DNA of 64,000 nt, taken from positions 1-64,000 of the forward strand of contig NZ_AYXG01000039.1 of assembly GCF_000564855.1 (NCBI RefSeq). Reading direction: 5' to 3'. Position 1 is the first letter of the stretch. Each line of letters opens with the position of its first letter. Below are positions 14,510 to 62,474 of the stretch, piece by piece. The position numbers were made by a program, and so were the translations under genes. The DNA is from Actinokineospora spheciospongiae (lineage in GTDB: Bacteria > Actinomycetota > Actinomycetes > Mycobacteriales > Pseudonocardiaceae). Below the pieces are notes generated by a model, which searched no databases, was not told where the DNA came from, and worked only from the letters and a program-made list of their open reading frames with translations.

Positions 14510-19030
<4,521 letters not shown>

Positions 19031-29661: not shown

Positions 29662-29676
29662 GACGGTATCCCCATC

Positions 29677-47713: not shown

Positions 47714-48741
47714 CCGGGGCGCGGACCGGGGTCGACCCCCGGCAGCGGGTCTCCACCATGATCGAGGGCTACCGGCGCAGCGCCCTGGTGCACACCGCCG
47801 CCGAACTCGGCGTGGCCGCGCACCTGGCTGGCACCCGGCGCACCGCCGCCGACCTCGCCTCCCGCGTCGGCGCCCACGAGCGACCGCTCACCCAGGTGCT
47901 GCGCGCCCTCGTCGGCCTGGGCCTGCTCGACCAGGACGACGACGGCCGGTTCGGCCTGACCGAGGCGGGCGAATACCTGGACCCGGCGCACCCGGGGTCG
48001 CTGCACGGGCAGGCGGTCTACTTCGGCGGCGCCAGCTACCGGGCCTACTCGGGCCTGACCACCGCCCTGCGCGAGGGCGGGATCGCCTTCGACCACGTCT
48101 TCGGGATGCCCTACTACGACCACCTCGACCGCGACCCGGTGCTGGCCGAGCACTACCACCGGATGATCGCCCTGCCCGCCGGGTCGGCGGCGCTCATCGG
48201 CAGCCTGTTCGACTTCTCCACCGCCACCGAGGTGGTCGACGTCGGCGGCGGCAACGGTTCGCTGCTCGCGGAGATCCTCACCCTGGCCCCGGCCGCGACC
48301 GGGACCCTGTTCGAGCTGCCACTGACCGAGCCGTCGGCCACCCAGACCCTCGCGTCGGTGCCGGGCGGGGACCGGTGCCGGTTCGTCCCCGGCGACTTCC
48401 GCGAGCACGTGCCCCCCGGCGGCGACGTCTACGTGCTCTCGCGGGTGCTGGCCAACTGGCCGGACCCGGTGGCCGGGCGCATCCTGGCCAACTGCCGCGC
48501 CGCCCTCGGCGCCACCGGCAGGCTGCTGGTGTTCGAGATGATGGCGCCGGACCGGATCGAGGAGGGCATGTCCGTCGTCGAGGGCGACCTGAACGCCCTG
48601 GCCCACCTCGGCGGCGCGGTCCGCACCCGCGCGCAGTTCACCGAGCTGCTGACCTGCGCGGGCCTGCGGCTGGACCGCGTGCAACAGGTCCCGGGCACCT
48701 TCTGGACCCTGTTGGAGTCCAGTGTGGATGGTCGGCCGTGA
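47710..48741 (+). CDS. O-methyltransferase, SAM-dependent (COMT-like)
   Basis: 343 aa. Family-2 small-molecule O-methyltransferase: N-terminal winged-helix dimerisation region ('HTAAELGVAAHLAGTRRTAADLASRVGAHERPLTQVLRALVGLGLL'), SAM motif 'VVDVGGGNGSLLAEIL' at ~174, and 'YVLSRVLANWPD' / 'LLVFEMMAPDR' in the catalytic domain. The usual catalytic His of COMT-like enzymes seems to be replaced in 'SRVLANWPD' (many have HxxHDW). Start GTG 47710 overlaps the NRPS2 stop. Likely target: an enol or hydroxyl on the product, for example a beta-keto/tetramate enol or a hydroxyl made by PhyH or P450. Confidence 0.9.
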   Translation: MTGARTGVDPRQRVSTMIEGYRRSALVHTAAELGVAAHLAGTRRTAADLASRVGAHERPLTQVLRALVGLGLLDQDDDGRFGLTEAGEYLDPAHPGSLHGQAVYFGGASYRAYSGLTTALREGGIAFDHVFGMPYYDHLDRDPVLAEHYHRMIALPAGSAALIGSLFDFSTATEVVDVGGGNGSLLAEILTLAPAATGTLFELPLTEPSATQTLASVPGGDRCRFVPGDFREHVPPGGDVYVLSRVLANWPDPVAGRILANCRAALGATGRLLVFEMMAPDRIEEGMSVVEGDLNALAHLGGAVRTRAQFTELLTCAGLRLDRVQQVPGTFWTLLESSVDGRP

Positions 48742-50039
48742 GCGCGATCCCGGTCTTCGCCGGACCGCCGCTGCTGGGGCTGAACCTGCGCTTCCTGCGC
48801 GACCCCATCGGCATGTTCAGCCAGGCCCGCCGCGACCACGGCGACGTGGTGCAGCTCGACCTCGGCCTGGCCGGGCCGCTGCACGCGGTCTTCCACCCCG
48901 AGGGCGTCAAGCGGGTGCTGATGAACGGCCGCCGCACGCACCGGCAGCTCCTGCGCGAACTGCTCGGCAAGGGCCTGTTCACCAGCCCCAGCGGCGACGA
49001 CTGGGGGCGCAGGCGCAGGCTGCTGACCCCGCTGTTCCGCGCCGAGCGACTGGCCGCGATGACCCCGCTGCTGCTCGGTCCGCTGGACGAGGCGCTGGAC
49101 ACCCGGTGGCGCACCGGCGAGCGGATCGACCTGGCCACCGAGATGAAGCGGATCACCGTGGCGATGATGGTCGAGGCCACCTTCGGCACCGGCGCCGACG
49201 TCGACCGCACCGCCGCCCGGGCCGCGCTGGACTTCCTGCTCGGCTACGTCGACCACCAGCTCTTCACCTTCGCCACCGCCCCCCGCTCCTGGCCGACACC
49301 CGCGAACCGGCGCTACCGCACCGACATCGCCGCGCTGCGCCGGATCATCGGCGACGCCCTGGTGGCCCGCACCCGGCGGCCGGGCACCGAGCCGACGTTC
49401 CTCGACGGGCTGCTGGAGCACCGGGCCGGGTTCTCCGACGAGGAACTGGTGGACGAGGTGCTGTCCATCTTCATCGCGGGCACCGAGACCACCGGCACCG
49501 CGCTGGTTTGGGCGCTGCACCTGCTCAGCCTCAACGGCGAGGTGGCCGAGCAACTGCGCGCCGAGGTGGACGACGTGGTGGGGCAGCAGGACCCGACCGG
49601 GGACCTGCTGCGGAAGCTGCGGGTGCCGCGCGCCGCCGTCCGCGAGTCGCTGCGGCTCTACCCGCCCGCGTGGGCGCTGCGCCGGGTGCTCGACGAGCCG
49701 CTGGACGTCGGCGGGCACGTGCTGCCCGCCGGGGCGCGGACGATCGTGTCCTCGTACGTGACCCACCGCCACCCCGACGTGTGGTCGACCCCCGACGCGT
49801 TCCTCCCCGAGCGCTGGCTCTCCGGCGAGGAGCGGCACCGCTTCGCCTACTTCCCGTTCGGCGCGGGCGCGCACCAGTGCGTCGGCAACACCTTCGCCCA
49901 ACTGGAGGGCGACCTGGTGCTGACCAGGGTCGCCCAGCGCTTCCGCCTCGACCCGCTGCCCAACCAGCCGACCGGGACCAAGCCCGCCATCGCGCTGACC
50001 CCCGTCCCAGCGCCGACCCCGCTGCTGATGCCCGTCTGA
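48738..50039 (+). CDS. Cytochrome P450
   Basis: 433 aa. Heme-binding loop FGAGAHQCVGNTFA (Cys381), I-helix 'IFIAGTETTGTALVW', K-helix 'RESLRLYPP' and 'FLPERWL'. The K-helix ESLR-type plus PERF/W-like motifs resemble the CYP102/CYP4-like fatty-acid hydroxylase branch more than typical macrolide P450s, which would suit oxidation of an acyl chain; this is inference. GTG start overlaps the methyltransferase stop (48738-48741). No ferredoxin gene nearby, so electrons come from elsewhere. Confidence 0.92.
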   Translation: MSAIPVFAGPPLLGLNLRFLRDPIGMFSQARRDHGDVVQLDLGLAGPLHAVFHPEGVKRVLMNGRRTHRQLLRELLGKGLFTSPSGDDWGRRRRLLTPLFRAERLAAMTPLLLGPLDEALDTRWRTGERIDLATEMKRITVAMMVEATFGTGADVDRTAARAALDFLLGYVDHQLFTFATAPRSWPTPANRRYRTDIAALRRIIGDALVARTRRPGTEPTFLDGLLEHRAGFSDEELVDEVLSIFIAGTETTGTALVWALHLLSLNGEVAEQLRAEVDDVVGQQDPTGDLLRKLRVPRAAVRESLRLYPPAWALRRVLDEPLDVGGHVLPAGARTIVSSYVTHRHPDVWSTPDAFLPERWLSGEERHRFAYFPFGAGAHQCVGNTFAQLEGDLVLTRVAQRFRLDPLPNQPTGTKPAIALTPVPAPTPLLMPV

Positions 50040-50063
50040 CCCGACAAGGACCAGGTACCCACG

Positions 50064-50774
50064 ATGAGAGCCGACGCCCCCCGACCGGGAGCGCAACCCG
50101 CCCCCAAGAGCCCGGTGTCGCTGACCGACCTGCGGCACGCGAGCACGATCCTCGACTGGCTGCGCGACTACATCTCCATGCCGCACCCCCGGCTGGGCCG
50201 CAGCGGACCGGTGTGCCCGTTCGTCCCGCAGTCGCTGCGCACCGACCAGGTGCGGATCGTGCTGCACGACGAGATCGACGGCTCCGACACCGACGCGATC
50301 GCCGCGCTGCTGCGCGACTACCTGGCCGAGTTCATCGCCACCACGCCCGCCTCCGCGGCGGCGCGGCGGCAGCGCAGCCTGGTGATCGTGCTCCCCTCGA
50401 TCGACGACGAGCACTACCCCCTGCTCGACCAGGTGCACCGCGACGTGAAGACCGACATGGTCCTGGGCGGGGCGATGCTCGGGCAGTTCTACGAGGGCTG
50501 CCCGGAGACCGCCGTGCGCAACCCCGGGTTCGAGGTGTCCACCGGGCCGGTGCCCTGCTTCGTCATCCGGCACATGGCCCCGCACGACGTGCTGTTCCTG
50601 CACGAGCGGGCCGACTGGTTCGCCGAGTACCACCGCCGCTTCGCCGCCGAGTACGCGGCGGGCAAGGTCAACGACCCCCTGATGGTCCGGCTGTTCGAAG
50701 AGGCCTCCGCTGACATCGACACCGCCGACCTCGCCGGGGAAGACAACACCGAAGAAGAACTGGAGAAGCGATGA
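50064..50774 (+). CDS. Uncharacterised protein, DUF6875-like
   Basis: 236 aa, soluble, no signal peptide. Landmarks: 'WLRDYISMPHPRLGRSGPVCPFVPQSL', 'RSLVIVLPSIDDEHYPLLDQVHRDVKTDMV', 'GGAMLGQFYEGCPETAVRNPGFEV' and 'CFVIRHMAPHDVLFLHERADWFAEYHRRF'. I associate this pattern with DUF6875 from memory and cannot verify it. Conserved Cys, His and Asp residues could form an active site. It sits between the P450 (24-bp gap, with its own ribosome binding site AAGGA) and the propeller lipoprotein (4-bp ATGA overlap), so it belongs to the biosynthetic operon. Its role is unknown; with no thioesterase present, a part in release or cyclisation is possible but unproven. Confidence 0.8.
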   Translation: MRADAPRPGAQPAPKSPVSLTDLRHASTILDWLRDYISMPHPRLGRSGPVCPFVPQSLRTDQVRIVLHDEIDGSDTDAIAALLRDYLAEFIATTPASAAARRQRSLVIVLPSIDDEHYPLLDQVHRDVKTDMVLGGAMLGQFYEGCPETAVRNPGFEVSTGPVPCFVIRHMAPHDVLFLHERADWFAEYHRRFAAEYAAGKVNDPLMVRLFEEASADIDTADLAGEDNTEEELEKR

Positions 50775-51925
50775 ACACCACCGTGCGCCGCAAGCTGCGC
50801 TTGGCCGCCGTCGCGTGCGCCGCGGGCCTGACCGCCGTCGGCTGCGCCCTGCCCGAGGAGGTGGACTTCGCCGCGGCGTCCACCCTCGACATCGGCGGCG
50901 GCCCGGCCTCCACGGCCACCGCCGACATCAACGACGACGGGATCACCGACGTGATCACCGGCGACTTCCTCAGCACGACCGTGTCGGTGCTGCTGGGCGA
51001 CGGCAAGGGCGGCTTCGCCGAGCCGATCAACTCCGAGGTGGGCATCAACCCGGCCGACGTGGGCGTGGGCGACTTCGACGGCGACGGCAACCTCGACGCC
51101 ACGGTCCCCAACTACGGCAAGGGCATGGTCACCGTGGTCTTCGGCGACGGGTCGGGCAAGTTCGCCAACCCGACGCAGTTCCCGACCGGTGAGGACCCCA
51201 ACCGCATCCTGGCCGTCGACCTCGACGACGACGGGTCGCTGGACCTGGTCACCAGCAACTACAAGGGCGGTGACATCTCGGTGCTGATGGGCGACGGCAA
51301 GGGCGCCTTCGCCGAGCCGGTCAACACCCCCACCCCGGCGGCCCCGATCCGGCTGCTGGCCGCCGACCTCGACGAGGACGGCGTGCTGGACCTGATCATC
51401 GGGCACTTCGGTTCGCACGACGTGTCGATCCTCTACGGGACCGGCAAGGGCGCCTTCCGCGCCCCCGAGGTGATCACCACCGCCGACGACCCGGCGGGCC
51501 TGGCGGTGGCCGACCTCGACGACGACGGGCACGTGGACCTGGCGGTCGCCAACTACGGCTCCAACGACGTGTCGGTGTTCCTCGGCGAGGGCGAGGGCGA
51601 GTTCGCCGACCCCCGCCGCTACCCGGTCAACGGCGGCGCCCCGGCGGGCCTGCTGGCGGTGGACCTCAACGGCGACGGGTACCTGGACCTGGCGACGAAC
51701 AACTCCACCACCGACGACGTGAGCGTGCTGCGCGGCGACGGCGCGGGCCGGTTCAGCGAGGGCGCGCTCGCCGACGTGGGCGACGACCCGCGCGGGGGCA
51801 TCGCCGCCCTGGACGTCGACGGCGACGGCGCCACCGACCTGGTCACGGTGAACCACAACTCCAGCGACATGTCGGTGCTGCTCAACAACGGCGGCGGCGG
51901 CAAGACCAAGCGCGCGGGCAAGTGA
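50771..51925 (+). CDS. Seven-bladed FG-GAP/VCBS beta-propeller lipoprotein
   Basis: 384 aa. Signal peptide with lipobox AVGC (lipidated Cys25). Then seven repeats of about 45 residues, each with a calcium-type D-x-D/N-x-D-G loop ('DINDDG', 'DFDGDG', 'DLDDDG', 'DLDEDG', 'DLDDDG', 'DLNGDG', 'DVDGDG') followed by '[15 protein letters not shown]'-like strands. Seven blades is the integrin-alpha-like closed propeller. The ATG overlaps the stop of the upstream gene (ATGA). Such an extracellular lipoprotein is an odd member of an NRPS operon; binding of the exported lipopeptide, perhaps through calcium, is a reasonable guess. Confidence 0.9.
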
Positions 51926-51950
51926 GCCGCGCACCGGGAGGGGAACGGCC

Positions 51951-52178
51951 GTGAGCACGCGAGAACACACCGCCGGGCCGCGCGTGCAGGTGGTGGTCAA
52001 CCACGAGGAGCAGTACTCGATCTGGCCCGCCGACCGGGAACCGCCCGCGGGCTGGACCCCGGTGGGCGTGGCCGGTCCCGAGGAGGAGTGCCTGGACTGG
52101 ATCGAGGCGCACTGGACCGACCTGCGCCCGCTCAGCCTGCGACGGGCGATGGGGGCCGAACGGGTGGCAGCGCCGTGA
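51951..52178 (+). CDS. MbtH-like protein
   Basis: 75 aa. The MbtH signature is plain: '[52 protein letters not shown]'. Proteins of this type bind NRPS adenylation domains and are often needed for their solubility or activity. GTG start 51951 with a GGGAGGGG ribosome binding site. It follows the propeller gene by 25 bp, and presumably serves A1-A4. Confidence 0.93.
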
Positions 52179-52261
52179 TCGGACCCCAGGGGTGCACCCA
52201 CCGGAACCGGGCCGGTACTTTCGGTGAGCCGGTCGAACCAGACGCGCGGGAGAACTAGGAC

Positions 52262-53590
52262 ATGCCAACAGCCGACACCGAGGCGGGGACGCCGAGCGCC
52301 ACCCGCCTGCTGCGGACCAACAGGCCGCTGCGCGCGTTGTTCACCGCGCGGGTGGTGTCCTACGGCGGTGACTCGCTCAGCCTCGTCGCCCTGATGCTGC
52401 ACGTGGCCAACACGACCGGCCAGGGCCTGGCGGTGGCGCTGCTGCTGCTGGTGGGCGACTTCGTGCCGTCGCTGATCAGCCCGCTCACCGGGGCGATCAG
52501 CGACCGGTTCGACCTGCGCCGCGTGATGATCATGTGCGAGATCGCCCAGGGCGTGCTGGTGCTGATGATCGCGTTGGCCCTGCCGCCGCTGCCGCTGCTG
52601 CTGACCCTGGTCGGCCTGCGGGCGATCGCCTCGCAGATCTTCCAGCCCGCCTCCCGCGCGGCCATCCCGTCCATGGTGGGCGAGCGCGACCTGGAGACGG
52701 CCAACTCGGCGGTGGGCTTCGGCTCGAACTGCGCCGAGGCGTTCGGACCGCTGCTGGCCGCGGCGATGCTGCCGTTCCTGGGCATCCGCGGCGTGCTGCT
52801 GGTCGACGCGGCGTCGTTCCTGCTCTCGGCGGTGGTGCTGCTGGCCACCAAGCCGATGCCGCCGGTGCCGGACCCCGACGCCGACCAGGGCACGCTGCTG
52901 ACCCAGGCCAAGGTGGGGTTGGGCTACATCCTGCGGACCCCGGCGATCCGGATCATCTCGCTGGGCTTCTGCGCGGTGGTGGCGTTCAACGGCGTCGACG
53001 ACGTGGCGCTGGTGCTGCTGGCCAAGGAGGACCTGATGTCCGGGGACTCCTCGGTGGGCCTGCTGCTGGGCGCGGTCGGCATCGGCCTGCTGGTCGGGTA
53101 CGCGCTGCTGACCCGCTACAGCTCGTCCATGGCGATGCCGACCCTGCTGGTCGCCGGTTTCCTGGTGAGCAGCGCGGGCAACTTCCTGACCGGCCTGGCC
53201 TGGTCGGTGGCCGCGGCGTTCACCGTGCAGGCGGTGCGCGGCCTGGGCATCGCGGGCATGGACGTGGCGTCCTCGACGATGTTGCAGCGGATGGTGCCGC
53301 CGAACCTGCTCGGCCGGGTCTTCGGCAACCTCTACGGCGCCATCGGGGTGGCGGCGGCGATCTCCTACGTCGGCGGCGGTCTGCTGCTCGACGCCACGGA
53401 CGCCCCGACCACGCTGATGATCGCGGGCGGCGGCGGCGTGGTGTTCACCCTGCTGGTGGCGGTCACGCTGCCCAGGGCGCTCAAGCGCCACACGGCCCCG
53501 GAGACGCCAGAGGACCCCGCGCCGGACGAGGTCGCGCACGACGCGATGTCCGCCGACGAGACCCTGGCGGACAAGCAGGCCAGGGGCTGA
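52262..53590 (+). CDS. MFS exporter, EntS-like
   Basis: 442 aa, about 12 membrane helices, with a basic cytoplasmic loop 'GAISDRFDLRRVMIMCEIAQGV' (MFS motif A variant, DRFDLRR). Resembles the EntS/MFS_3 group that exports siderophores and peptide antibiotics. Last gene of the main operon (83 bp after MbtH, AGGA before the ATG). Probable exporter or self-protection gene for the lipopeptide. Converges with the kinase gene with a 7-bp gap. Confidence 0.88.
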   Translation: MPTADTEAGTPSATRLLRTNRPLRALFTARVVSYGGDSLSLVALMLHVANTTGQGLAVALLLLVGDFVPSLISPLTGAISDRFDLRRVMIMCEIAQGVLVLMIALALPPLPLLLTLVGLRAIASQIFQPASRAAIPSMVGERDLETANSAVGFGSNCAEAFGPLLAAAMLPFLGIRGVLLVDAASFLLSAVVLLATKPMPPVPDPDADQGTLLTQAKVGLGYILRTPAIRIISLGFCAVVAFNGVDDVALVLLAKEDLMSGDSSVGLLLGAVGIGLLVGYALLTRYSSSMAMPTLLVAGFLVSSAGNFLTGLAWSVAAAFTVQAVRGLGIAGMDVASSTMLQRMVPPNLLGRVFGNLYGAIGVAAAISYVGGGLLLDATDAPTTLMIAGGGGVVFTLLVAVTLPRALKRHTAPETPEDPAPDEVAHDAMSADETLADKQARG

Positions 53591-53597
53591 TCGTCGG

Positions 53598-54410
53598 CTA
53601 CCGCGGTGCGTCGGCCCACCGGCGCACCGCGGTGGCCAGTTCGCCGCAGGTGGCGAAGCGGTCCTCCGGGCGCGGGGCCATGGCCCGCCGGATGACCGCC
53701 GACAGGGCCGCGCCGTCCCCGGGCAGCGCGGCGTGCACCCGTTCGCGCAACCCGGGCTCCTCCTCCAGCCGCCACGGCTCCACCCCGGTGGCGCAGGCCA
53801 GCACCAGCGCGCCGAGGGAGTACACGTCGGCGCGGTGGTCGGCGGGCAGCCCCGCGAGCTGCTCGGGGGCACCGTAGCCGGGTGACCCGGCGGAGCGCTC
53901 CGGGCGGGCCTGCGCGGCGGTGCCCGGGGTGCGCGCCGGGGTGGCGATGCCGAAGTCGCTCAGGAAGCAGTGCCCGCCCGCCCGGGTGGCCACCAGGACG
54001 TTGCGCGGCTTGACGTCGCGGTGCACCAGCCCCCAGGCGTGCACGTGGTCGAGGGCCGAGGCGACCTGGCCCACCACCTCCGCCGTCCGCGCCGGGGTGC
54101 ACGGCCCCTCCTCGTCGAGCAGGCTCTGCAGGTCCGAGCCGTGCACGTAGGCCAGGACGACGTAGAGCGACCCGCCCGCCTCCCCGGCCGAGAGCACCCG
54201 GGTGATGTGCGGGTGGTCCAGCCCGGCCGCCATCCGCGCCTCACCGAGGAAGCGGGCGCGCAGCCTGTCCTCGTGCGCGACGGCCGGGCGCAGCAGCTTG
54301 ATCGCGACCCGGCGGGCGAGCAGCAGGTCCTCGGCCAGGTACACCACGCTGATGCCGGAGCCGCCGATCTCGCCGTGCACGCGGTACCCGGGAACGTGGG
54401 GCGTGTCCAC
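53598..54410 (-). CDS. Soluble Ser/Thr protein kinase
   Basis: About 270 aa, kinase domain only. Gly loop GEIGGSGISVVY, Lys38 (VAIKLL), catalytic Asp132 in HRDVKPRN, DFG and 'GSPGYGAPEQL' (activation-loop end). All catalytic residues are intact. There is no transmembrane or sensor region, unlike most actinobacterial PknA/B-type kinases (~500-650 aa), so it acts in the cytoplasm or through partners. Divergent from the operon beginning at 54589, whose third gene encodes an FHA-domain protein. This is the usual kinase-FHA pairing, though that FHA domain is degenerate. GTG 54410 chosen; 54428 is also possible. Confidence 0.92.
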   Translation of the reverse strand: MDTPHVPGYRVHGEIGGSGISVVYLAEDLLLARRVAIKLLRPAVAHEDRLRARFLGEARMAAGLDHPHITRVLSAGEAGGSLYVVLAYVHGSDLQSLLDEEGPCTPARTAEVVGQVASALDHVHAWGLVHRDVKPRNVLVATRAGGHCFLSDFGIATPARTPGTAAQARPERSAGSPGYGAPEQLAGLPADHRADVYSLGALVLACATGVEPWRLEEEPGLRERVHAALPGDGAALSAVIRRAMAPRPEDRFATCGELATAVRRWADAPR

Positions 54411-54588
54411 CGCGCCTCCCTCCCGCACGACTGACAGAACACCCTACCCTACATCGGAAACCCGGCCCCTGTACCGAATCCGGGGCCCGTGGTTAGCTCG
54501 ATTCCGAGCGGGACAGTCACAACCACCCGGTCGACGCAGGACCCGAGAAGGGCGCGGCGGCCGACCACTTCGCCGAAGGTGTGAGACC

Positions 54589-56169
54589 GTGTCCACAACA
54601 GACGAAACCCGGGTGTCCGCGCCCCCGGCGCGACCGGTTTGGGACGACCGGACCCCCGACCTGCCAGACCAGCTCCAGCGCACTCCGGTGTGGACCGACG
54701 AACTCGTCGCGGCCTCGGGCATCCCCGTGGTGGACGTGCCGTTCGTGACCGTCGGCGGCGGCATGGGCTCGTTCACCATGGTCGACGTGCTGCGCATCGC
54801 CGGGGTGCCGACCAACCAGGTGAAGGTGCTCACGAACCTGCGCCACCCCTGGGAGAACTACGCCTACCTCACCGGCGTCTCCCAGCTCCCGCCGCACTAC
54901 CGCATCCGCTCGGACGCGTCCTCGATGCCGGACAACCTCTGGGGCTTCCCGAGCTACGCCGCGCGGCGGGCCTTCCACTCGCGCAGCGTCAGCGGCTTCA
55001 TCGCTCCACTGTGGAACGTGCTGACCGAGAACGTGCTGACCGACTACTGGACGCCGCTGGCCGGTGAGGTCTTCGAGGGGATGCGCCGCGAGGCCGACCG
55101 GATCGGCTACTGGGACTGCGTGGCGCACGGGCAGGCCAGGATGGTCCGCAAGCGCGCGGCGGGCGGCTACTTCACCGTGTTCACCACCCAGGGCGCGCGC
55201 AAGCAGCGGATCATCTACCGCAGCGCGTACGTGCACCTGGCGGTCGGCTGGCCGAGCATCCGGTTCCTGCCGGACATGCAGCAGTTCCGCTCCCAGCACG
55301 GCAACGGGTACCGCTTCGTCAACGCCTACGAGCCGCACGAGCAGGTCTACGACGACCTGGTGGCCCGCCCGGGCACGGTGGTGCTGCGCGGCGGCGGCAT
55401 CGCGGCCTCGGCGATCATCCACCGGCTGCTCAACGACCGCGAGAAGCTGGGCGCGCAGACCAGGATCGTGCACGTGCTGCGCACCTACGTGGAGGGCCCG
55501 CACGGCCCGTCGCGGTTCATGCGCCGCCGCGGCAAGAACGGCTGGGCGCACCAGGGCTTCAACTGGCCGAAGGCCTCCTGGGGCGGTCAGCTCAAGATGC
55601 GCATGGAGCGGCTGGAGGGCGAGGAGCGCAAGCGGCTCTGGGAGACCCTGGAGGGCACCACCACCCCCTACCGCAAGGGCTGGCAGAAGCAGCTCGCCGC
55701 CGCCCGCCGCGACGGCGTCTACACCACCGTCGCCGGGGTCATCGACCGGGTCGACCGGGTCGGGGACGGGCGGCTCGGCGTGGTCTACCGCGACACCAAG
55801 GGCGGCGGCCTGCGCTCGCTCGACGCCGACTTCCTGGTCGACGCGACCGGGCTGATCGGCGACCTGCGCTCGCACCGGCTGCTCAACGACCTGGTGGAGG
55901 TCACCGGGGTGGACCGCAACGTGCTGGGCAGGCTCGACGTGAGCCCGGGCTTCGAGGTGCGCTCGGCGCGCAGCGGCTCGGGCCGGATGTTCGCCGCGGG
56001 CGCGATCACCGAGGGCGCCTACTACGCCCCGGCCGACTCGCTGCTCGGCGTGCAGTACGCCTCGCTGCGCACCGCCGACCAGCTCGCGGAAATGGGCTTC
56101 GGCAAGCGCATCGGCTCCGGCCGCTCGATCGCGCAGTGGTGGCGCTTCATGCGGGGGGTGACCCCGTGA
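54589..56169 (+). CDS. FAD/NAD(P)-binding oxidoreductase of unrecognised family
   Basis: 526 aa. Two nucleotide-binding Rossmann motifs: VGGGMGSF at residues ~55-62, and 'TVVLRGGGIAASAIIHRLL' near 265-283. The C-terminal 'DADFLVDATGLIGDLRSH' and 'GRMFAAGAITEGAYYAPADSLLGVQYASLRTADQLAEMGFG' are FAD-type endings. I do not recognise the family; it is not a P450 reductase, thioredoxin reductase or halogenase. No membrane segments, but its stop overlaps the start of a 4-TM protein (GTGA), so it may dock at the membrane. GAAGG ribosome binding site before GTG 54589. Confidence 0.85.
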   Translation: MSTTDETRVSAPPARPVWDDRTPDLPDQLQRTPVWTDELVAASGIPVVDVPFVTVGGGMGSFTMVDVLRIAGVPTNQVKVLTNLRHPWENYAYLTGVSQLPPHYRIRSDASSMPDNLWGFPSYAARRAFHSRSVSGFIAPLWNVLTENVLTDYWTPLAGEVFEGMRREADRIGYWDCVAHGQARMVRKRAAGGYFTVFTTQGARKQRIIYRSAYVHLAVGWPSIRFLPDMQQFRSQHGNGYRFVNAYEPHEQVYDDLVARPGTVVLRGGGIAASAIIHRLLNDREKLGAQTRIVHVLRTYVEGPHGPSRFMRRRGKNGWAHQGFNWPKASWGGQLKMRMERLEGEERKRLWETLEGTTTPYRKGWQKQLAAARRDGVYTTVAGVIDRVDRVGDGRLGVVYRDTKGGGLRSLDADFLVDATGLIGDLRSHRLLNDLVEVTGVDRNVLGRLDVSPGFEVRSARSGSGRMFAAGAITEGAYYAPADSLLGVQYASLRTADQLAEMGFGKRIGSGRSIAQWWRFMRGVTP

Positions 56170-56597
56170 CCCCGACGCTGCTGGGCCGCTGGCAGTCGCG
56201 GCTGTTCGTCCTGGCCACCGCCGGTCTGCTGTGGACACTGCTGCTCACCCCGCTGCTGCCGGTCGGGTTCGCGACCACGCGGGAGACCTACGCGGGCACC
56301 TTCGCCGCCATCGGGGTGACGGCGGCGGTGGGCCTGGTGCTGTGGGAACCGCTCTACCAGTTCCTGCAGCAGTTCCGCTGGGAGAAGGACTGGCCCGCGA
56401 TGTTCACCCTGCTGGAGGGCATCCCGGAGGGTGTGGTCGTCTTCTTCCTGCTGCGCGACGTCCTCGGTTTCGACGTGCGCGCCACCCCGTTCCTCATCCA
56501 CTTCGGCACGACCTGGCTCGTGGTGTTCCTCTGCCTGCACGGGCCGTTGCGCGTGGTGTCGGTCCGCTGGCGATTCCGTGCTGGGAGACTGCTGTGA
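56166..56597 (+). CDS. Four-helix integral membrane protein
   Basis: 143 aa with four hydrophobic helices ('LFVLATAGLLWTLLLTPLLPVGF', 'GTFAAIGVTAAVGLVLWEPLY', 'MFTLLEGIPEGVVVFFLLRDVL', 'LIHFGTTWLVVFLCLHGPL'). The helix 1-3 pattern 'LPVGFATTRETYAGTF...EKDWPAMFTLLEGIPEG' is repeated in the membrane part of the next gene ('LPVGFAPLEDVYLSTF...AKDWPVAFLLAQAVPEA'), so the two are paralogous modules. Coupled to both neighbours by 4-bp GTGA overlaps. Function unknown. Confidence 0.85.
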   Translation: MTPTLLGRWQSRLFVLATAGLLWTLLLTPLLPVGFATTRETYAGTFAAIGVTAAVGLVLWEPLYQFLQQFRWEKDWPAMFTLLEGIPEGVVVFFLLRDVLGFDVRATPFLIHFGTTWLVVFLCLHGPLRVVSVRWRFRAGRLL

Positions 56598-58456
56598 AAC
56601 TCGACGACTTCAAGGTGGCCGTGCGGCCGGGCCCGGGGCTGGTGGGCCGGTTCCCCACCTCGGTCCTGCTGCTGGCCGGGGACGACCGGCCCGACGCGGG
56701 CGCCAACGCCCACGACAAGCTGATCGGCCTGTTCAGCGACGGCGCCGAGCTGGGCCCCCGGCTGGAGGCGATGTTCGCCGCCCCGGGCCCGACCGAGTCC
56801 GCCTCGGTGTTCGCCGCCGTGGTGGAGACCGGGGAGCGGGTGCACGTCTACCTGCACGGCCCGCTGGAGGTCTCCGCCGACAGCCCGACCGCGGAGCTGC
56901 GGGTGTGGGGTCAGCCGGGCGGCGGCCTGCGCCGCTACGACGCCCCGGACGGCATCGGCTCGCTGTCGATCCGCGGGGTGGGCGAGCAGATCAGCACCGA
57001 CACGGCCTCGCTGTCGCTGCGCAACGGCCTGGTCTCCGGCGGCGGCCTGGTGCTGCACCGCGACGGCGCCGAGCCCCCCGCCCGGCCCACCGAGATGGCC
57101 CCGATGGCTGCCGAGCACGACGCCCAGGCGAGCGGCAACGGCGGCACCGGCACCATGACCGCCGCACCGCCCGCTCCCCCGGCGTCGCAACCCATGTCGC
57201 AACCGATGTCGCAGTCGGGGTCGCAGCCCGCTCCCCAGCCCGTGTCGCACCGGATGTCGCAGCCCATGACCCGGCCGACGCCGGTGCAGTCCCCGCCCAC
57301 CGGGCAGGTCCACACCGCCGCACCGTCGTTCACCGGCGGACCGCCGGTGTTCCCGACCTCCGGCGCCCGGCCGCAGCCCACGCGGTCCGGCGGCACCCCC
57401 GACTGGCTCGACCAGGGCAACCGGTCCGACACCGAGGCCGCCACCGGCGCACCCACCCCCTCCTACGGTTCGCGGATCGGCGCCCGGCTGATCAGCACCG
57501 CGATCGTCGGCGGCCTGGCCACCCTGCTGCTCGGGTTCGTGCTGCCGGTCGGCTTCGCCCCGCTGGAGGACGTCTACCTGTCCACCTTCATCGGGTTGGG
57601 CCTGCTGTTCGTGCTCGGCGCGGTGGTGTGGGACTTCATCTTCGACACCCTCCAGCGCAGGCGCTCGGCCAAGGACTGGCCGGTGGCGTTCCTGCTGGCC
57701 CAGGCCGTGCCCGAGGCGGCGCTGGCCTACGGCGCGCAGACCCTGCTGCTGCCCGACGGGTACGTGGTCGACGAGGTCGCGCTGGCCATCGACCTGGGCG
57801 TGGTCGCCGTGCTGATCAGCCTGGGCACCCTCCTGCTGGGCAAGGTCCCGCCCACCCGCAAGCTGCTGTACCGCCGCACGCCCGCCACCGCCGGGGGCAG
57901 CTCCACCGACGGCCCAGGCGGGTTCCACTCCCTGCCCGGTTCGCCCACCACCGCCCAGTCCGCCGGGGGTTCCGCCGCGAACACCCCGATGGTCTGGGGC
58001 ATCAACTGCCAGCAGGGGCACTTCAACCGCCCCGACGCCCGCTACTGCGCGGCCTGCGGCACCGCGATGCACGGCCTGACCCACGAGCCCAGGCAGGGCC
58101 CGCGCCCGCCGCTGGGCTACCTGATCGGCGACGACGGCGCCTCGCACGTGCTCGACCGCGACGTGGTGCTGGGCACCGCGCCGCACCACGACGACAAGGT
58201 GCGCACCGGGCAGGCGGTCGCCCTGGCCGTCGCCGACGGCACCGGGCTGCTCGCCGACTCCCACGCCGACATCGCCCTGAGCGAGTGGGACGTGACCGTC
58301 GTCGACCGCGGCCACCCGCAGGGCACGCACGTCCGCGAACCCGACAGCGCCACCTGGGTGCGCCTGGCCCCCGGGCAGCCGTTCACCGTCGCCTCCGGCA
58401 GCCGCATCCGCCTGGGCAGCCGCGACCTGGCCTACCACGCGGCCAACACCCGCTGA
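56594..58456 (+). CDS. FHA-domain membrane protein with zinc ribbon
   Basis: 620 aa. N-terminal ~155 residues: a beta-rich domain seen in other actinobacterial FHA proteins. ~165-290: a disordered Pro/Gln/Ser/Met-rich linker with MSQP repeats. ~295-425: a four-helix membrane module homologous to the 143-aa protein upstream. ~470-490: a zinc-ribbon-like knuckle, Cys472/His476...Cys485/Cys488 (CxxxH...CxxC). ~506-618: an FHA-fold domain. Compared with FHA consensus (GR...SxxH...NG), the Arg reads Thr (VLGTAPH), the Ser reads Ala and the Asn reads Gln (HPQGT), so phosphothreonine binding is doubtful. GTG start overlaps the previous gene. Likely an assembly or signalling scaffold paired with the divergent kinase. 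Confidence 0.85.
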   Translation: MKLDDFKVAVRPGPGLVGRFPTSVLLLAGDDRPDAGANAHDKLIGLFSDGAELGPRLEAMFAAPGPTESASVFAAVVETGERVHVYLHGPLEVSADSPTAELRVWGQPGGGLRRYDAPDGIGSLSIRGVGEQISTDTASLSLRNGLVSGGGLVLHRDGAEPPARPTEMAPMAAEHDAQASGNGGTGTMTAAPPAPPASQPMSQPMSQSGSQPAPQPVSHRMSQPMTRPTPVQSPPTGQVHTAAPSFTGGPPVFPTSGARPQPTRSGGTPDWLDQGNRSDTEAATGAPTPSYGSRIGARLISTAIVGGLATLLLGFVLPVGFAPLEDVYLSTFIGLGLLFVLGAVVWDFIFDTLQRRRSAKDWPVAFLLAQAVPEAALAYGAQTLLLPDGYVVDEVALAIDLGVVAVLISLGTLLLGKVPPTRKLLYRRTPATAGGSSTDGPGGFHSLPGSPTTAQSAGGSAANTPMVWGINCQQGHFNRPDARYCAACGTAMHGLTHEPRQGPRPPLGYLIGDDGASHVLDRDVVLGTAPHHDDKVRTGQAVALAVADGTGLLADSHADIALSEWDVTVVDRGHPQGTHVREPDSATWVRLAPGQPFTVASGSRIRLGSRDLAYHAANTR

Positions 58457-58498
58457 CCACCCCGTTCGGACAGTCCGTAAACCAGATCGAGGAGAGTC

Positions 58499-59347
58499 AT
58501 GACTTCGGCGATGTACCAGCCCGAGACCACCCGCTCCTTCTACAACAACTGGGGCGCCAACGAGTGGAACCGGCTGGAGAGCTCGTTCGAGAACCGGATC
58601 AACTACCAGATCCACCGCACCATCCTGGGTGAGCTGGTCAAGCCGGGCGACCGGGTGCTGGAGGCGGGCGCCGGTCCGGGCCGGTTCACCCTGGAGCTGA
58701 CCAAGGCGGGCGCCGAGGTCACCGTGTGCGACCTGTCCGACGTGCAGTTGGCCTTCAACAAGGAGAAGGTCACCGAGGCGGGCCTGGCGGGCAACGTCAC
58801 CGGCTGGCACCAGGCCGACATCGTCGACCTGAGCCGCTTCCCGTCGGCGGGCTTCGACACCGTGGTGTGCGTGGGCAGCGTGCTGAGCTGCGTGCTCGAC
58901 CGCATCCCGGAGGCGTTCGACGAGCTGATCCGGCTGGTGCGCCCCGGCGGCACCGTGATCGTCAGCGTCACCTCCCGCTACGGCTACCTGCGGGCGGGCC
59001 TCAACGCCATCCTGCCGATGGTCGCCGCGGGCGGACAGCTCGGGGCGATCGACCAGGCGGTGGCCACCGGTGACATCGCGGGCGTCCAGGCCGACTTCGA
59101 GCTGCTGACCACGCACTTCTTCACCTGGGACGAGCTGCGCACGCACCTGACCTCGCGCGGCTGCGAGATCGTCACCGCCTCGGCGTCGAACTTCCTGTCC
59201 GCCGACACCCCGCTGCTCGACGAGTCGCTGCTGGCCGACCCGGAGGTCATGGCCGCCTTCACCCGCTGGGAACTGCAGGCCTGCCGCGCCCCGGGCAACA
59301 TTGACGGCGGCACGCACATCATCGCCGCCGCCCGCAAGGCGGAGTGA
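58499..59347 (+). CDS. Class I SAM-dependent methyltransferase
   Basis: 282 aa. SAM motif 'RVLEAGAGPGRFTLELTKAGAEVTVCDLSDVQL' at ~52, acidic 'DIVDL' and 'LVRPGGTVIVSVTSRYG' post-motifs. N-terminal 'RSFYNNWGANEWNRLESSFENRINYQIHRTILGEL' is typical of small-molecule N/O-methyltransferases. Ribosome binding site GAGGAGAG; 42 bp after the FHA gene and coupled to the next methyltransferase by GTGA overlap. Substrate unknown; possibly the lipopeptide. Confidence 0.9.
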   Translation: MTSAMYQPETTRSFYNNWGANEWNRLESSFENRINYQIHRTILGELVKPGDRVLEAGAGPGRFTLELTKAGAEVTVCDLSDVQLAFNKEKVTEAGLAGNVTGWHQADIVDLSRFPSAGFDTVVCVGSVLSCVLDRIPEAFDELIRLVRPGGTVIVSVTSRYGYLRAGLNAILPMVAAGGQLGAIDQAVATGDIAGVQADFELLTTHFFTWDELRTHLTSRGCEIVTASASNFLSADTPLLDESLLADPEVMAAFTRWELQACRAPGNIDGGTHIIAAARKAE

Positions 59348-60078
59348 CGGTGCAGGGATACCAGCAGTCCACCTACGGCGACCGGATCGCCGACATCTAC
59401 GACCGGGTGCACAGCAACTGGACGCCGGACGACACCGTGGACACGGTGGTCGAGCTGGCCGACGGCGGCCCGGTGCTGGAGCTGGGCGTGGGCACCGGGC
59501 GGGTGGCGCTGCCGCTGGCCGAGCGCGGGGTCAAGGTCACCGGCGTGGACATCTCCGAGCCGATGCTGGCCCAGCTCCGGGCCAAGGACCCCGACGGCAG
59601 GGTGGAGACGGTGCTCGGCGATTTCATCGACCTGCCGGTGACCGGCCGGTTCAAGGTCGTGCTGGTGGTCAACTCGCTGTTGCAGCTCGCCGGGGCCGAC
59701 ACCCAGCAGCAGTGCCTGCGCAACGTCGCCAAGCACCTGGCGCCCGACGGCGTGCTGGTGCTGGAGGAGGCCAACCCGGCGGTGTTCATCCGCCCCGGGC
59801 TGGAGATCCTGCGGATGACCTCCGACGAGCTGCACCTGCTCGCCGCCCAGTACGACCCGGTGCACCAGCACTACTTCGCCCAGCACGTGATCGTGCGCGA
59901 CGGCGAGACCCGGCTCAACCCGATGGCGCTGCGGCTCACCTCGACCTGCGAGCTGGACCTGATGTGCGAGCTGGCCGGGATGCGGCTGGCCGAGCGGTGG
60001 GGCGACTGGGCGCGCAGCAGGCCGTTCCTGGCCGAGAGCCGCTCGCACATCTCGCTCTACCGGCCGGTGGAGCGGTGA
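59344..60078 (+). CDS. Class I SAM-dependent methyltransferase (second)
   Basis: 244 aa. SAM motif 'PVLELGVGTGRVALPLAERGVKVTGVDISEPML' at ~42, then 'VETVLGDFIDLPVTGRFKVVLVVNSLLQL'. N-terminal 'YGDRIADIYDRVHSNWTPDDTVDTVVELA' resembles Methyltransf_25 tailoring enzymes. Not a close copy of the upstream methyltransferase. GTG start in a 4-bp overlap; the stop abuts the LLM gene (TGATG). Confidence 0.9.
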   Translation: MTVQGYQQSTYGDRIADIYDRVHSNWTPDDTVDTVVELADGGPVLELGVGTGRVALPLAERGVKVTGVDISEPMLAQLRAKDPDGRVETVLGDFIDLPVTGRFKVVLVVNSLLQLAGADTQQQCLRNVAKHLAPDGVLVLEEANPAVFIRPGLEILRMTSDELHLLAAQYDPVHQHYFAQHVIVRDGETRLNPMALRLTSTCELDLMCELAGMRLAERWGDWARSRPFLAESRSHISLYRPVER

Positions 60079-60917
60079 TGGAGTTCGGGTTCTGCTTCGG
60101 CACCATGCTGCGCGCCGACCCGGACGCGAGCAGGCTCTGGGAGCTGTTGGCCGAGGTCGAGCGGGTCGGGTACGACTCGGCCTGGCTCTACAACACCAAC
60201 GGCGCCCTGCCGCCGGTGCTGGACCTGCTCACCGAGGCCGTGACCCGCACCGAGCGGCTGGTCGTGGGCCCGCACGTGCTGGTGGCGGCGGGGATGCCCC
60301 CGCTGCCGCTGGCCGAGCGGCTCAGCGGCCTGGCCGCGGCGTCCTCGGGCCGGTTCGTCGCCCAGCTCGGCCTCGGTGGGCCGCGCGAGGCGCTGATCCC
60401 GGACCCGAGGGAGGCGGCCAAGGCGATGGAGGGCCTGCTCACCGACATGGCGGCCCACTTCGACGCCGACGACTCCCGACCCAGGCCCCCGGTCTGGCTC
60501 GGCGGCCACTCGCCCAGGGCGGCCCGCCGGGTCGCCGCCCTGGCCGACGGCTGGGTGCCGTCGTTCATCGCCCCCGCCGAGTTCGGCGCCCGGCGGGCGA
60601 TGATCGACGGGCTGGTGGCCGAGCGCGGCGGGCGCAAGGAGGTCACGCACGCGGTCCAGGTCGTGTACGTGCCCCCCGAGCTGGACGGCCAAGACTGGCT
60701 CACCGAACAGCTCGACGACGAGGTCCGCAGGCACAAGCCGGGTTTCGCCACCGCCGACATCTACGCCTTCGGCGGCTACGGGGCGGTCGTCGACCGGGTG
60801 GCGGAGTTCCGCGACCAGGGCGCCGCGCACGTGATCCTGGTCCCGGCCCGCCCCCCGGCCGACCCCGCCGAGGAGATCACCCGGTTGTACGAGGAGGTGG
60901 TCCGGACCTTCCGGTGA
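60078..60917 (+). CDS. LLM-class (luciferase-like) flavin/F420-dependent oxidoreductase
   Basis: 279 aa. TIM-barrel luciferase-like monooxygenase family: 'SRLWELLAEVERVGYDSAWLYNT', 'VTRTERLVVGPHVLVAAGMPPLPLAERLSGLAAASSGRFVAQLGLG', 'PPVWLGGHSPRAARRVAALADGWVPSF'. The layout fits the F420-dependent branch. ATG 60078 shares one base with the previous stop (GTG 60075 also possible). Last gene of the operon, followed by a hairpin at 60922-60953. Probably a redox tailoring step. Confidence 0.88.
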   Translation: MEFGFCFGTMLRADPDASRLWELLAEVERVGYDSAWLYNTNGALPPVLDLLTEAVTRTERLVVGPHVLVAAGMPPLPLAERLSGLAAASSGRFVAQLGLGGPREALIPDPREAAKAMEGLLTDMAAHFDADDSRPRPPVWLGGHSPRAARRVAALADGWVPSFIAPAEFGARRAMIDGLVAERGGRKEVTHAVQVVYVPPELDGQDWLTEQLDDEVRRHKPGFATADIYAFGGYGAVVDRVAEFRDQGAAHVILVPARPPADPAEEITRLYEEVVRTFR

Positions 60918-60921
60918 CCGC

Positions 60922-60953
60922 GGGCGGGCGAACCCGGTATGGTTCGTCCGCCC
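60922..60953 (+). terminator. Hairpin terminator after the LLM gene
   Basis: 13-bp stem GGGCGGGCGAACC / GGTTCGTCCGCCC with one G-U pair and a 6-nt loop, starting 4 bp after the LLM stop. It marks the end of the 54589-60917 operon and separates the DHA2 transporter gene. Confidence 0.85.
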
Positions 60954-61016
60954 CGCCGGGCACCCTGCGTGAGCGCCCCGGCACGGAAACCGACCCCCAC
61001 CGCACCGGAGTGATCC

Positions 61017-62474
61017 ATGTCCGACGTCCCCGGAACGACCGAAACGACGGCCGAGACGACCGGCGAGACGGCGCACCCCACCGACTTCGACTGGCCGTTC
61101 CTGCGGCTCGTGCTGGTCATGGTCCTGGGCGGGATGATGGCCTTCCTGGACGCGACCATCGTCAACGTCGGCGTGGACACCCTGCGCACCGAGTTCGGCA
61201 CCGGGCTGGAGACCATCCAGTGGGTCGCCACCGGCTACCTCCTGGCGGTGGCGGTGGTGACCCCGCTGGCCGGGTGGCTGATCGACCGCTTCGGCGGCAA
61301 GCGGATGTGGCTCACCGGGCTGGTGGCGTTCCTCGTCGGGTCGGTGCTGTGCAGCCTGGCCTGGTCGGCGCCGAGCCTGATCGCCTTCCGGGTGGTGCAG
61401 GGCCTCGGCGGCGGGATGCTCGAACCGATCATGCTGGCGCTGCTGGTCCGCGCGGCGGGGCCCGCCCGCATCGGCAGGCTGATGGGGCTGCTCGGCGCCG
61501 TCACCGTCGGTCCGGTGCTGGGCCCCCTGCTCGGCGGGACGATCCTGGCCAACCTCGACTGGCACTGGCTGTTCCTGATCAACGTGCCGCTCGGCCTGGC
61601 CGCGATCGCCTGCGCCGTGCGCTACCTGCCCGCCGACTCACCGGGGGCGGGCGGCGGAGGCGCGCCGCCCGCGAAGGTCGACGTGCTGGGCATCGCGCTG
61701 CTGTGCCCGGCCAGCGTCGGGCTGATGTTCGGCCTGTCCCGGGCCGGGGACGGCAGCGGCTTCGGCAGCGCCCCGGTGGTGCTGGGGCTGGTGGTCGGCG
61801 CGGTGTTCCTGATCGCCTACCTGGTGCACGCGCTGCGGATGAGCGGCACCCCGCTGATCGACCCGCGCCTGTTCGCCCGCTGGACCTACACCGCCAGCGC
61901 GATCGGCATGACGGTCCTCGGGGTCGTCCTGTTCTCCCTGCTGTTCCTCATCCCGCTGTACTACCAGGAGATCCGCTCCTACGGCCCGCTCGCCGTGGGG
62001 CTCCTGCTCGCCCCGCTGGGGCTGGGCGCGCTGGTGGGCAACCCGGTCGCGGGCAAGTACGTCGACCGCCTCGGCGCCCGGGTCCTGGCCCCGTTCGGCG
62101 GCCTGCTGATCGCCGCCACCGCCGTCGTGTTCATCACCGCGGGCCCCACCACGCCGGTCGGCTGGCTGATCCCGTGGACCTTCCTGGCGGGCTTCGGCGT
62201 CGGCTGCGTCGGCGCCCCGACCATGGGTTCGCTCTACCGCACGGTCCCCGGTGACGCGGTCCCCCGCGCCACCAGCGCCGCCATGGTCCTGCACCAGCTC
62301 GGCGCGGCCTTCGGCATCGCCATCGTCGCCCTGGTCCTGCAACGCAACCTGGCCTCGGGGACCGCGGAGTCGGCCTACTCCGACACCTTCTGGTCCCTGC
62401 TCGTGGCCGCCGCGCTCATCTTCGTGGTCGGGTTCGCCCTGCCGCGCAGGCAGCGGCCCACCGAGACCGGCTGA
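61017..62474 (+). CDS. DHA2-family MFS drug exporter
   Basis: 485 aa, about 14 membrane helices, EmrB/QacA type: 'MMAFLDATIVNVGVDTL' (motif D1), 'GWLIDRFGGKRMWLTG' (motif A) and 'GAVTVGPVLGPLLGGTI' (motif C, antiporter signature). An acidic Thr/Glu-rich N-terminus precedes helix 1. Separate from the preceding operon because of the hairpin at 60922. A candidate resistance or export gene for the nearby product. Confidence 0.92.
   Translation: MSDVPGTTETTAETTGETAHPTDFDWPFLRLVLVMVLGGMMAFLDATIVNVGVDTLRTEFGTGLETIQWVATGYLLAVAVVTPLAGWLIDRFGGKRMWLTGLVAFLVGSVLCSLAWSAPSLIAFRVVQGLGGGMLEPIMLALLVRAAGPARIGRLMGLLGAVTVGPVLGPLLGGTILANLDWHWLFLINVPLGLAAIACAVRYLPADSPGAGGGGAPPAKVDVLGIALLCPASVGLMFGLSRAGDGSGFGSAPVVLGLVVGAVFLIAYLVHALRMSGTPLIDPRLFARWTYTASAIGMTVLGVVLFSLLFLIPLYYQEIRSYGPLAVGLLLAPLGLGALVGNPVAGKYVDRLGARVLAPFGGLLIAATAVVFITAGPTTPVGWLIPWTFLAGFGVGCVGAPTMGSLYRTVPGDAVPRATSAAMVLHQLGAAFGIAIVALVLQRNLASGTAESAYSDTFWSLLVAAALIFVVGFALPRRQRPTETG

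Follow-up and report, generated by a model that had tools for sequence, protein, structure and literature searches.

What does a serine/threonine (Ser/Thr) kinase gene do inside a nonribosomal peptide synthetase (NRPS)-polyketide synthase (PKS) cluster, when it stands divergently beside three overlapping genes for a protein of flavin adenine dinucleotide (FAD) type, a protein with four transmembrane segments (4-TM protein) and a protein with an FHA-like end? The question is raised by a 64,000-nucleotide stretch of the Actinokineospora spheciospongiae genome (contig NZ_AYXG01000039.1), here called the window; the genome that bears it is referred to as G000 (7.5 Mb; the window lies on contig C39). 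In an earlier note on this DNA the neighbouring kinase was supposed to phosphorylate a partner and the FHA domain to read the mark, an arrangement that may bring redox or tailoring chemistry at the membrane under phospho-control. Our analysis points elsewhere. As judged from gene order and sequence comparison, the FAD-type protein, the 4-TM protein and the zinc-ribbon/FHA adaptor form a conserved actinobacterial cassette, which usually has the genes of a cation/proton antiporter and of a small Ser/Thr kinase (SK, our own label) in its vicinity, and the window carries a derived, monophyletic form of it, represented by one NRPS-linked clade in which SK is absent, the phosphothreonine (pThr)-binding residues are lost and a second 4-TM module has been gained. 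The genes and gene parts in question are the following.

53598..54428 (start could be 54410), minus strand: PknB-like soluble Ser/Thr kinase, 276 amino acids (aa); Pfam Pkinase, E = 1.8e-36; divergent from the FAD gene
54589..56169, plus strand: FAD-type protein of an uncharacterised family, 526 aa; two dinucleotide-binding motifs, a D[ACG]TG motif and weak flavoprotein profile matches
56166..56597, plus strand: 4-TM protein of an uncharacterised family, 143 aa; four hydrophobic regions and conserved residues
56594..58456, plus strand: FHA-like adaptor, 620 aa; N domain, Pro-rich linker, embedded membrane module, zinc ribbon and FHA-like domain without pThr-binding residues
57458..57817, plus strand: second 4-TM module, embedded in the FHA-like protein; 4-TM profile, E = 1.2e-18

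All four genes are present as the earlier note described them, the kinase gene diverges from the other three, and these share GTGA twice (FAD stop with 4-TM start at 56166, 4-TM stop with FHA start at 56594); the kinase gene itself lies almost wholly outside the interval which that note had assigned to the set. Among the four proteins the kinase alone scored above a Pfam cut-off, and none above that of an NCBIfam family. In the FAD/NAD-type protein, called unrecognised in the earlier note, dinucleotide-binding motifs were found, and no Pfam or NCBIfam family at cut-off. The same searches assigned no family at cut-off to the 4-TM protein.

Within the order, 22 of 200 genomes (13 of 60 genera) encode the FAD protein; within the phylum, 12 of 396 (10 of 237 genera) do so. 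The 34 other loci compared here comprise 20 neighbourhoods from the 22 order genomes (G000 itself and G033 excluded) and 14 further ones, the neighbourhoods of the phylum matches G450 and G557 not being among them. A 4-TM gene lies directly behind the FAD gene, on the same strand and at -4 to 55 bp between match ends, in 33 of the 34 loci; an FHA/zinc-ribbon gene is found near the FAD gene in 30, a cation/proton antiporter in 26, and a match to SK also in 26 (25 without the 88-bit, sub-SK match of locus L091). The four loci without the FHA gene are L035 and L093, where the contig ends, L097, and L091, which is also without the 4-TM gene. When only the 27 loci that have 5 kb or more of sequence on either side are counted, the 4-TM gene is present in 26, the FHA gene in 26, the antiporter in 24 and the small kinase in 22 (21 without L091). 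For the antiporter, chance would give about 0.02 per 19 kb (71 matches in approximately 67 Mb of 8 genomes), related loci not being independent. Other flanking genes are variable; judged by eye on their translations, they include genes for Mfd-, RecO-, UppS- and Era-like proteins. The co-occurrence of the three genes is thus borne out, and the tie of the set to NRPS clusters, also suggested before, is not: the cluster form is one clade of four genomes, the other loci are found elsewhere in Actinobacteria, and by its gene neighbourhoods the cassette as such is not NRPS-specific. A separate case is genome G561 (L091, 9004-12775), in which the FAD gene and an antiporter are present and the 4-TM and FHA genes are absent within 9 kb.

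The Pfam FHA model matched four other places in G000 and gave no match at the end of the 620-aa protein. The C-terminal part of this protein aligned end to end with the Pfam-recognised FHA domains of its homologues in all three cases tested, and a zinc ribbon of the form CxxxH...CxxC precedes it, with a sub-threshold Pfam match only; the earlier assignment of the FHA-type end stands by this homology. According to PMC4157861, the pThr-binding site of FHA domains is composed of an Arg-Ser-Arg/Lys triplet and an Asn. Of the 30 FHA domains outside the cluster, 29 have the Ser, 27 the second Arg and all 30 the Asn, the whole site being intact in 26. In the four NRPS-linked domains the site is lost without exception: the Ser is replaced by A, A, G and G, the second Arg by D, E, D and D, and the Asn by Q in each; the first Arg is Thr in three of them and is retained in the copy from genome G822. 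The window domain has T, A and D in the triplet and Q at the Asn position.

The state of the reading site largely follows the presence of SK. Thirty-two loci were compared (L036 and L040 were left out, as their contigs end too soon), SK being counted as present above 150 bits, which leaves out L091 (88 bits). All 24 that have SK show an intact pThr site; of the eight that do not, seven have lost the second Arg. Fisher's test gives 2.4e-6, a value uncorrected for descent, with the losses confined to two clades. We infer from these counts that writer and reader were lost together. The pThr residues being replaced and SK missing, phospho-control read by the FHA domain is unlikely in the window, and by its sequence the window protein is not a pThr-reading FHA protein.

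The altered domain is nevertheless conserved. Comparison of the window with its Goodfellowiella counterpart (one pair, NG86 method, hence rough values of identity and of the ratio of nonsynonymous to synonymous substitution rates, dN/dS) gave 97% and 0.03 for the zinc ribbon and 89% and 0.2 for the FHA part, as against 74% and 0.52 for the N domain of the same protein, 66% and 0.81 for the embedded module, 38% and 0.75 for the linker and 49% and 1.3 for the spacer; the neighbouring proteins gave 90% and 0.19 (4-TM), 81% and 0.33 (FAD) and 83% and 0.29 (kinase). These values show the altered FHA domain and the zinc ribbon to be under strong constraint and not decaying, as far as sequences can tell. 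The idea that the cassette is a decaying passenger of the cluster, to which the lost FHA site and the fast-evolving linker and embedded module might point, is accordingly very improbable: the genes are free of stops, the overlaps are kept, the FAD, 4-TM, FHA and zinc-ribbon sequences evolve at low dN/dS, and the cassette is maintained in four genomes of three genera. Because the FHA-like domain is conserved despite the loss of its site, it probably has a phospho-independent partner. A scan of genome contigs with the FHA protein returned one relative, that of Goodfellowiella.

The kinase has to be considered separately. The window enzyme scored 126 bits with Pfam Pkinase (cut-off 31.7), its VAIK, HRDVKPRN and DFG motifs are intact and no hydrophobic stretch was found in it; a kinase occupies the same place in all four clusters. 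The four cluster kinases form a clade (support 100/100) within a PknB-like clade of 29 rows (97/98). The first kinase tree had 80 rows, including ten of G000, two of them identical, and the first trees drew on loci for 30 of the 59 kinase places and 30 of the 71 antiporter places; the PknB-like clade is rich in cassette-locus kinases, but the sample favours these. The assumption that this clade is special to cassette loci was rejected, as two unlinked G000 kinases fell inside it once 24 G000 rows had been added (quick tree). A PknB-like kinase gene diverging from the FAD gene at about 150-265 bp between match ends, as in the window, was found also in L046, L047, L049, L087 and L088. The window kinase may descend from one of the cassette kinases. 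Its identity with SK was rejected, the window kinase being PknB-like in the trees, so that the neighbouring kinase, taken in the earlier note for the kinase of the set, is not SK. No SK was found beside the four NRPS-linked copies; SK queries score 45-60 bits there, and it is the cluster kinase that they match (for SK against SK the median score is 228 bits and the minimum 17, the latter from truncated or divergent rows). Among the other G000 kinases matching at E 1e-10 or stronger (24 loci, 25 other Pkinase matches), each was closer to the PknB-like query than to any SK query, and none of the 24 fell in the SK clade. The cluster kinase of G718 (L079, 7114-7944) reads HRDVTPRN and, unlike the others, has no Glu at the alphaC position; it could be a pseudokinase or a kinase of low activity.

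The phospho-control proposed in the earlier note could still appeal to the constant position of a kinase beside the FAD gene in all four clusters, to the intact motifs of the window kinase and to the conserved FHA fold with its 89% identity to Goodfellowiella. Against it stand the replacement of the Ser, the second Arg and the Asn in all four copies, the failure of the Pfam FHA model to recognise the window domain, and the loss of the catalytic-loop Lys in the G718 kinase. Considering these facts, we regard the phospho-control of a membrane redox or tailoring step in the window as distinctly improbable.

How closely the derived form is bound to its cluster was seen from a 4-TM profile search of 297 genomes of the family, which gave 11 matches, four of them with two modules: G000, G718 (same genus as G000), G602 (Goodfellowiella) and G822. 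The phytanoyl-CoA dioxygenase-type (PhyH) gene of the cluster occurs in the same four of the 297 genomes only. The surroundings of the cassette in the window are as follows.

23780..25030, minus strand: CPA2-type cation/proton antiporter at the left cluster end; Pfam Na_H_Exchanger, E = 8e-36; same place in 4/4 clusters
25083..27917, minus strand: LuxR-type regulator with AAA_16 at the left cluster end; Pfam; kept in 4/4 clusters
28441..62474, unstranded: NRPS-PKS gene cluster enclosing the cassette; Pfam; collinear in four genomes of three genera
58499..59347, plus strand: methyltransferase MT1; Pfam; 42 bp behind the FHA gene
59350..60078, plus strand: methyltransferase MT2; Pfam
60078..60917, plus strand: luciferase-like (LLM) enzyme; Pfam Bac_luciferase

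The gene order is the same in all four genomes. It runs through the antiporter, the LuxR-type regulator, the PhyH-SCP2 protein, an acyl-AMP ligase, the NRPS, a PKS-NRPS, an O-methyltransferase and a cytochrome P450, and then through a DUF6875 protein, an FG-GAP protein, MbtH, a major facilitator superfamily (MFS) transporter, the kinase, the FAD, 4-TM and FHA genes, the two methyltransferases, the LLM enzyme and a second MFS transporter. MT1 follows the FHA gene after 42 bp, MT2 follows after 2 bp, and the LLM gene overlaps MT2 by one base; with such spacing the FAD, 4-TM, FHA, MT1, MT2 and LLM genes probably form one transcript.

On this arrangement it may be asked whether the FAD-type protein simply acts on the NRPS-PKS product as an ordinary tailoring oxidase, placed at the membrane next to exporters, with the 4-TM and FHA proteins as mere scaffolds. 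Besides the probable co-transcription with two methyltransferases and the LLM enzyme (gaps of at most 42 bp), the phylogeny speaks for it: the NRPS-linked FAD proteins group together in a single clade (100/100) with a stem of 0.81, and 21 positions that are at least 90% conserved elsewhere are altered in it, as would be expected for a new substrate. The FAD relatives outside the cluster, however, show no link to biosynthesis in the neighbourhoods fetched, and the FAD protein remains tied to the 4-TM and FHA genes. We consider this explanation unlikely.

Several observations on the cluster and the window stand by themselves. A fusion of a PhyH dioxygenase with an SCP-2 domain heads the cluster (28441-29661). 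An FG-GAP repeat protein within it (50771-51925) is kept in all four genomes at 68-74% identity. Just upstream of the cluster, G822 (L102, 2983-11252) has another LuxR-like gene, an NRPS-like piece and a further antiporter, related to that of the cluster at 33% identity. Further to the left in the window, a P-type ATPase open reading frame of 1506 aa (14510-19030) has no Pfam match at E 0.001 in its first 769 residues.

As to the FAD-type protein itself, a GxGxx[GAS] motif at residues 56-61 is present in all 38 homologues, a second one at 268-273 in 36 of 38, and a D[ACG]TG motif at 418 in all 38; the order of two GxGxx[GAS] motifs followed by an ATG-type motif is that of two-dinucleotide-binding flavoproteins. 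In hhalign comparisons (12 of 16 rows kept for PF13434, 16 of 24 for PF07992) the FAD profile matched PF13434 at E = 9e-4 (probability 22%) and PF07992 at E = 5e-4 (probability 32%). These matches are weak: the best of 60 shuffles reached 0.02, the antiporter and kinase profiles 0.046 and 0.21, and PF13434 against PF07992, which are true relatives, 8e-14. Sub-threshold Pfam matches of the FAD-type proteins were to Trp_halogenase (7 of 21) and Lys_Orn_oxgnase (2 of 21). Motif order and profile matches together suggest a two-dinucleotide-binding flavoprotein. The search of PDB by sequence gave no match for the FAD profile and, for one FAD homologue, two chance matches (E = 0.28 and 0.66). Among viral contigs none of 31 pattern matches was related to the FAD profile, and the plasmid collection yielded a single relative, on the 11.85-Mb Nonomuraea gerenzanensis sequence NZ_LT559118.1 (49.9% identity). 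In G033 the FAD gene (L028/L029, G033:C26:109769-111266) consists of two overlapping pieces in different frames, owing to a frameshift or an assembly error.

In the 4-TM protein W60, D75, P77 and E88 are conserved in all 37 homologues and E61 in 36; its profile found a single PDB match at E = 0.69 and no relative. The module embedded in the FHA protein is 38% identical to it (E = 2e-14), and the profile match (E = 1.2e-18) confirms the similarity of the twin modules claimed before, with the reservation that the embedded one has only three hydrophobic regions at the threshold at which the 4-TM protein has four. All four embedded modules retain the W, an acidic residue, DWP and the E. Each of the four cluster loci gave two 4-TM profile matches, 33 of the 34 others gave one, and L091 gave none. 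A tree of the modules groups the embedded ones in a single clade adjoining the NRPS-linked 4-TM proteins (8 rows, 99/86); this position fits an origin of the embedded module by duplication in the NRPS-linked lineage, although the branch is long.

The antiporter of the cluster, accompanied by a DUF885 gene, invites a third explanation, namely that the cassette and this antiporter guard the membrane, pH or redox state of the producer against its own product. In favour of such self-protection are the antiporters in 26 of the 34 other loci and at the left end of all four clusters, as well as the two MFS exporters. The cluster antiporter, however, is of another lineage and 30 kb distant, and no resistance family was recognised among the cassette proteins in Pfam, NCBIfam or PADLOC, which makes this explanation rather improbable. 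Descent of the cluster antiporter from a cassette antiporter was dropped in view of its outside position on a stem of 1.96 (the tree omits 19 of 30 sampled antiporters, for which tblastn gave no match); it may have taken the place of the ancestral antiporter, or may be there by coincidence. Among the PADLOC models the FAD, 4-TM, FHA and antiporter proteins had no match and the kinases matched kinase models only; an anti-phage function was dropped, there being no PADLOC match beyond the generic kinase domain.

The best explanation, which we hold tentatively and at somewhat less than an even chance, is a constitutive membrane redox complex in the window, derived from a phospho-switched ancestral form. 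In the ancestral form SK would phosphorylate a threonine on a partner; on reading the pThr, the adaptor would join the flavoprotein and the 4-TM protein in an assembly at the membrane, where NAD(P)H redox would be coupled to the antiporter next to it, in loose analogy to the action of KefF on KefC. In the window form the phospho-switch would have been exchanged for a permanent tether: the adaptor would be held in the membrane by its own 4-TM module, its FHA-like domain would serve as a phospho-independent binding surface, and the flavoprotein and the 4-TM protein would be kept as a constitutive redox unit, serving the tailoring of the NRPS-PKS product or protection from it. What the sequences show is the gene set with its conservation, the single clade, the lost site, the second module and the constraint; the cofactor, the complex, the coupling and the role in the cluster are inferred.

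Several points weigh against this proposal. The site is kept in L085 in spite of the lack of SK, and three family loci with neither the cluster nor the embedded module nor SK (L051, L086 and L090) show partial loss, with CD, SG and SG instead of SR, where a similar change may have begun independently. The cluster antiporter falls outside those of the other loci (own clade, 95/99, stem 1.96), which in turn interleave with unlinked antiporters in the tree. The FAD assignment comes from motifs and weak profile matches (hhalign probabilities of 22% and 32%), and the complex, cofactor and activity of the cassette proteins are putative throughout. AlphaFold models of the FAD and FHA proteins, with the Goodfellowiella homologue as the sole other row, had mean pLDDT confidence scores of 35 and 39 and were unusable. 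Finally, a specific heteromer of the two membrane modules, as imagined in the earlier note, is weakened, because the embedded module evolves fast (dN/dS 0.81, window against Goodfellowiella).

Three known systems resemble parts of the proposed one. The first is the Kef K+/H+ antiporter with its ancillary oxidoreductase KefF or KefG. In KefC-KefF an oxidoreductase subunit activates the antiporter, KefF being a soluble subunit of about 20 kDa that acts on the KTN domain (PMC10224563); the cassette shares with it a putative oxidoreductase gene beside a CPA2-type antiporter and a tight gene order. Unlike KefF, the FAD-type protein has about 515 aa (526 in the window), shows no KefF-like family match in Pfam or NCBIfam, and is accompanied by a kinase, a 4-TM protein and an FHA adaptor. 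The antiporters also differ: Na_H_Exchanger was matched in the L032 cassette antiporter at 1.6e-56 and in that of the cluster at 8e-36, but the KTN/TrkA domain of Kef is lacking in the former, the one cassette antiporter scanned, where only a sub-threshold Usp match follows the membrane domain; the cluster antiporter ends at its membrane domain. By these sequence criteria the cassette is not a Kef system. With PpkA-Fha of type VI secretion (PMC3953482) the ancestral cassette would share a kinase that writes and an FHA domain that reads at a membrane machine; it has no secretion genes, its effector would be the flavoprotein/4-TM unit, and in the window the site of the reader is lost. EssC of type VII secretion (PMC4925161) offers an FHA fold without pThr-binding residues in a membrane protein, in another protein and context; here relatives with an intact site are known, which allows the loss to be assigned to a single clade. 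There are thus precedents for kinase-FHA circuits, for oxidoreductase-antiporter pairs and for phospho-blind FHA domains. For the set and the cluster, searches of the open-licence PubMed Central literature turned up no description, in line with the earlier note, which knew of no described system with this set.

Taken together, the FAD-type and 4-TM proteins constitute conserved families that have neither a curated name nor a relative of solved structure, and throughout Actinobacteria gene order links them with an FHA adaptor, a kinase and an antiporter. Behind them may stand a widespread undescribed actinobacterial machine, a kinase and an FHA/zinc-ribbon adaptor gating an antiporter-coupled membrane flavoprotein, which in one lineage was captured by an NRPS-PKS cluster and rewired to a permanent tether through site loss and a second copy of the membrane anchor; as a whole, this wider picture is doubtful. 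If true, it would mean an unrecognised coupling of redox state and ion transport to Ser/Thr phosphorylation, the four NRPS-linked copies would represent a natural experiment, with the same unit minus its phospho-reader, and the window would provide a tangible example of a biosynthetic gene cluster that has taken over a signalling module.

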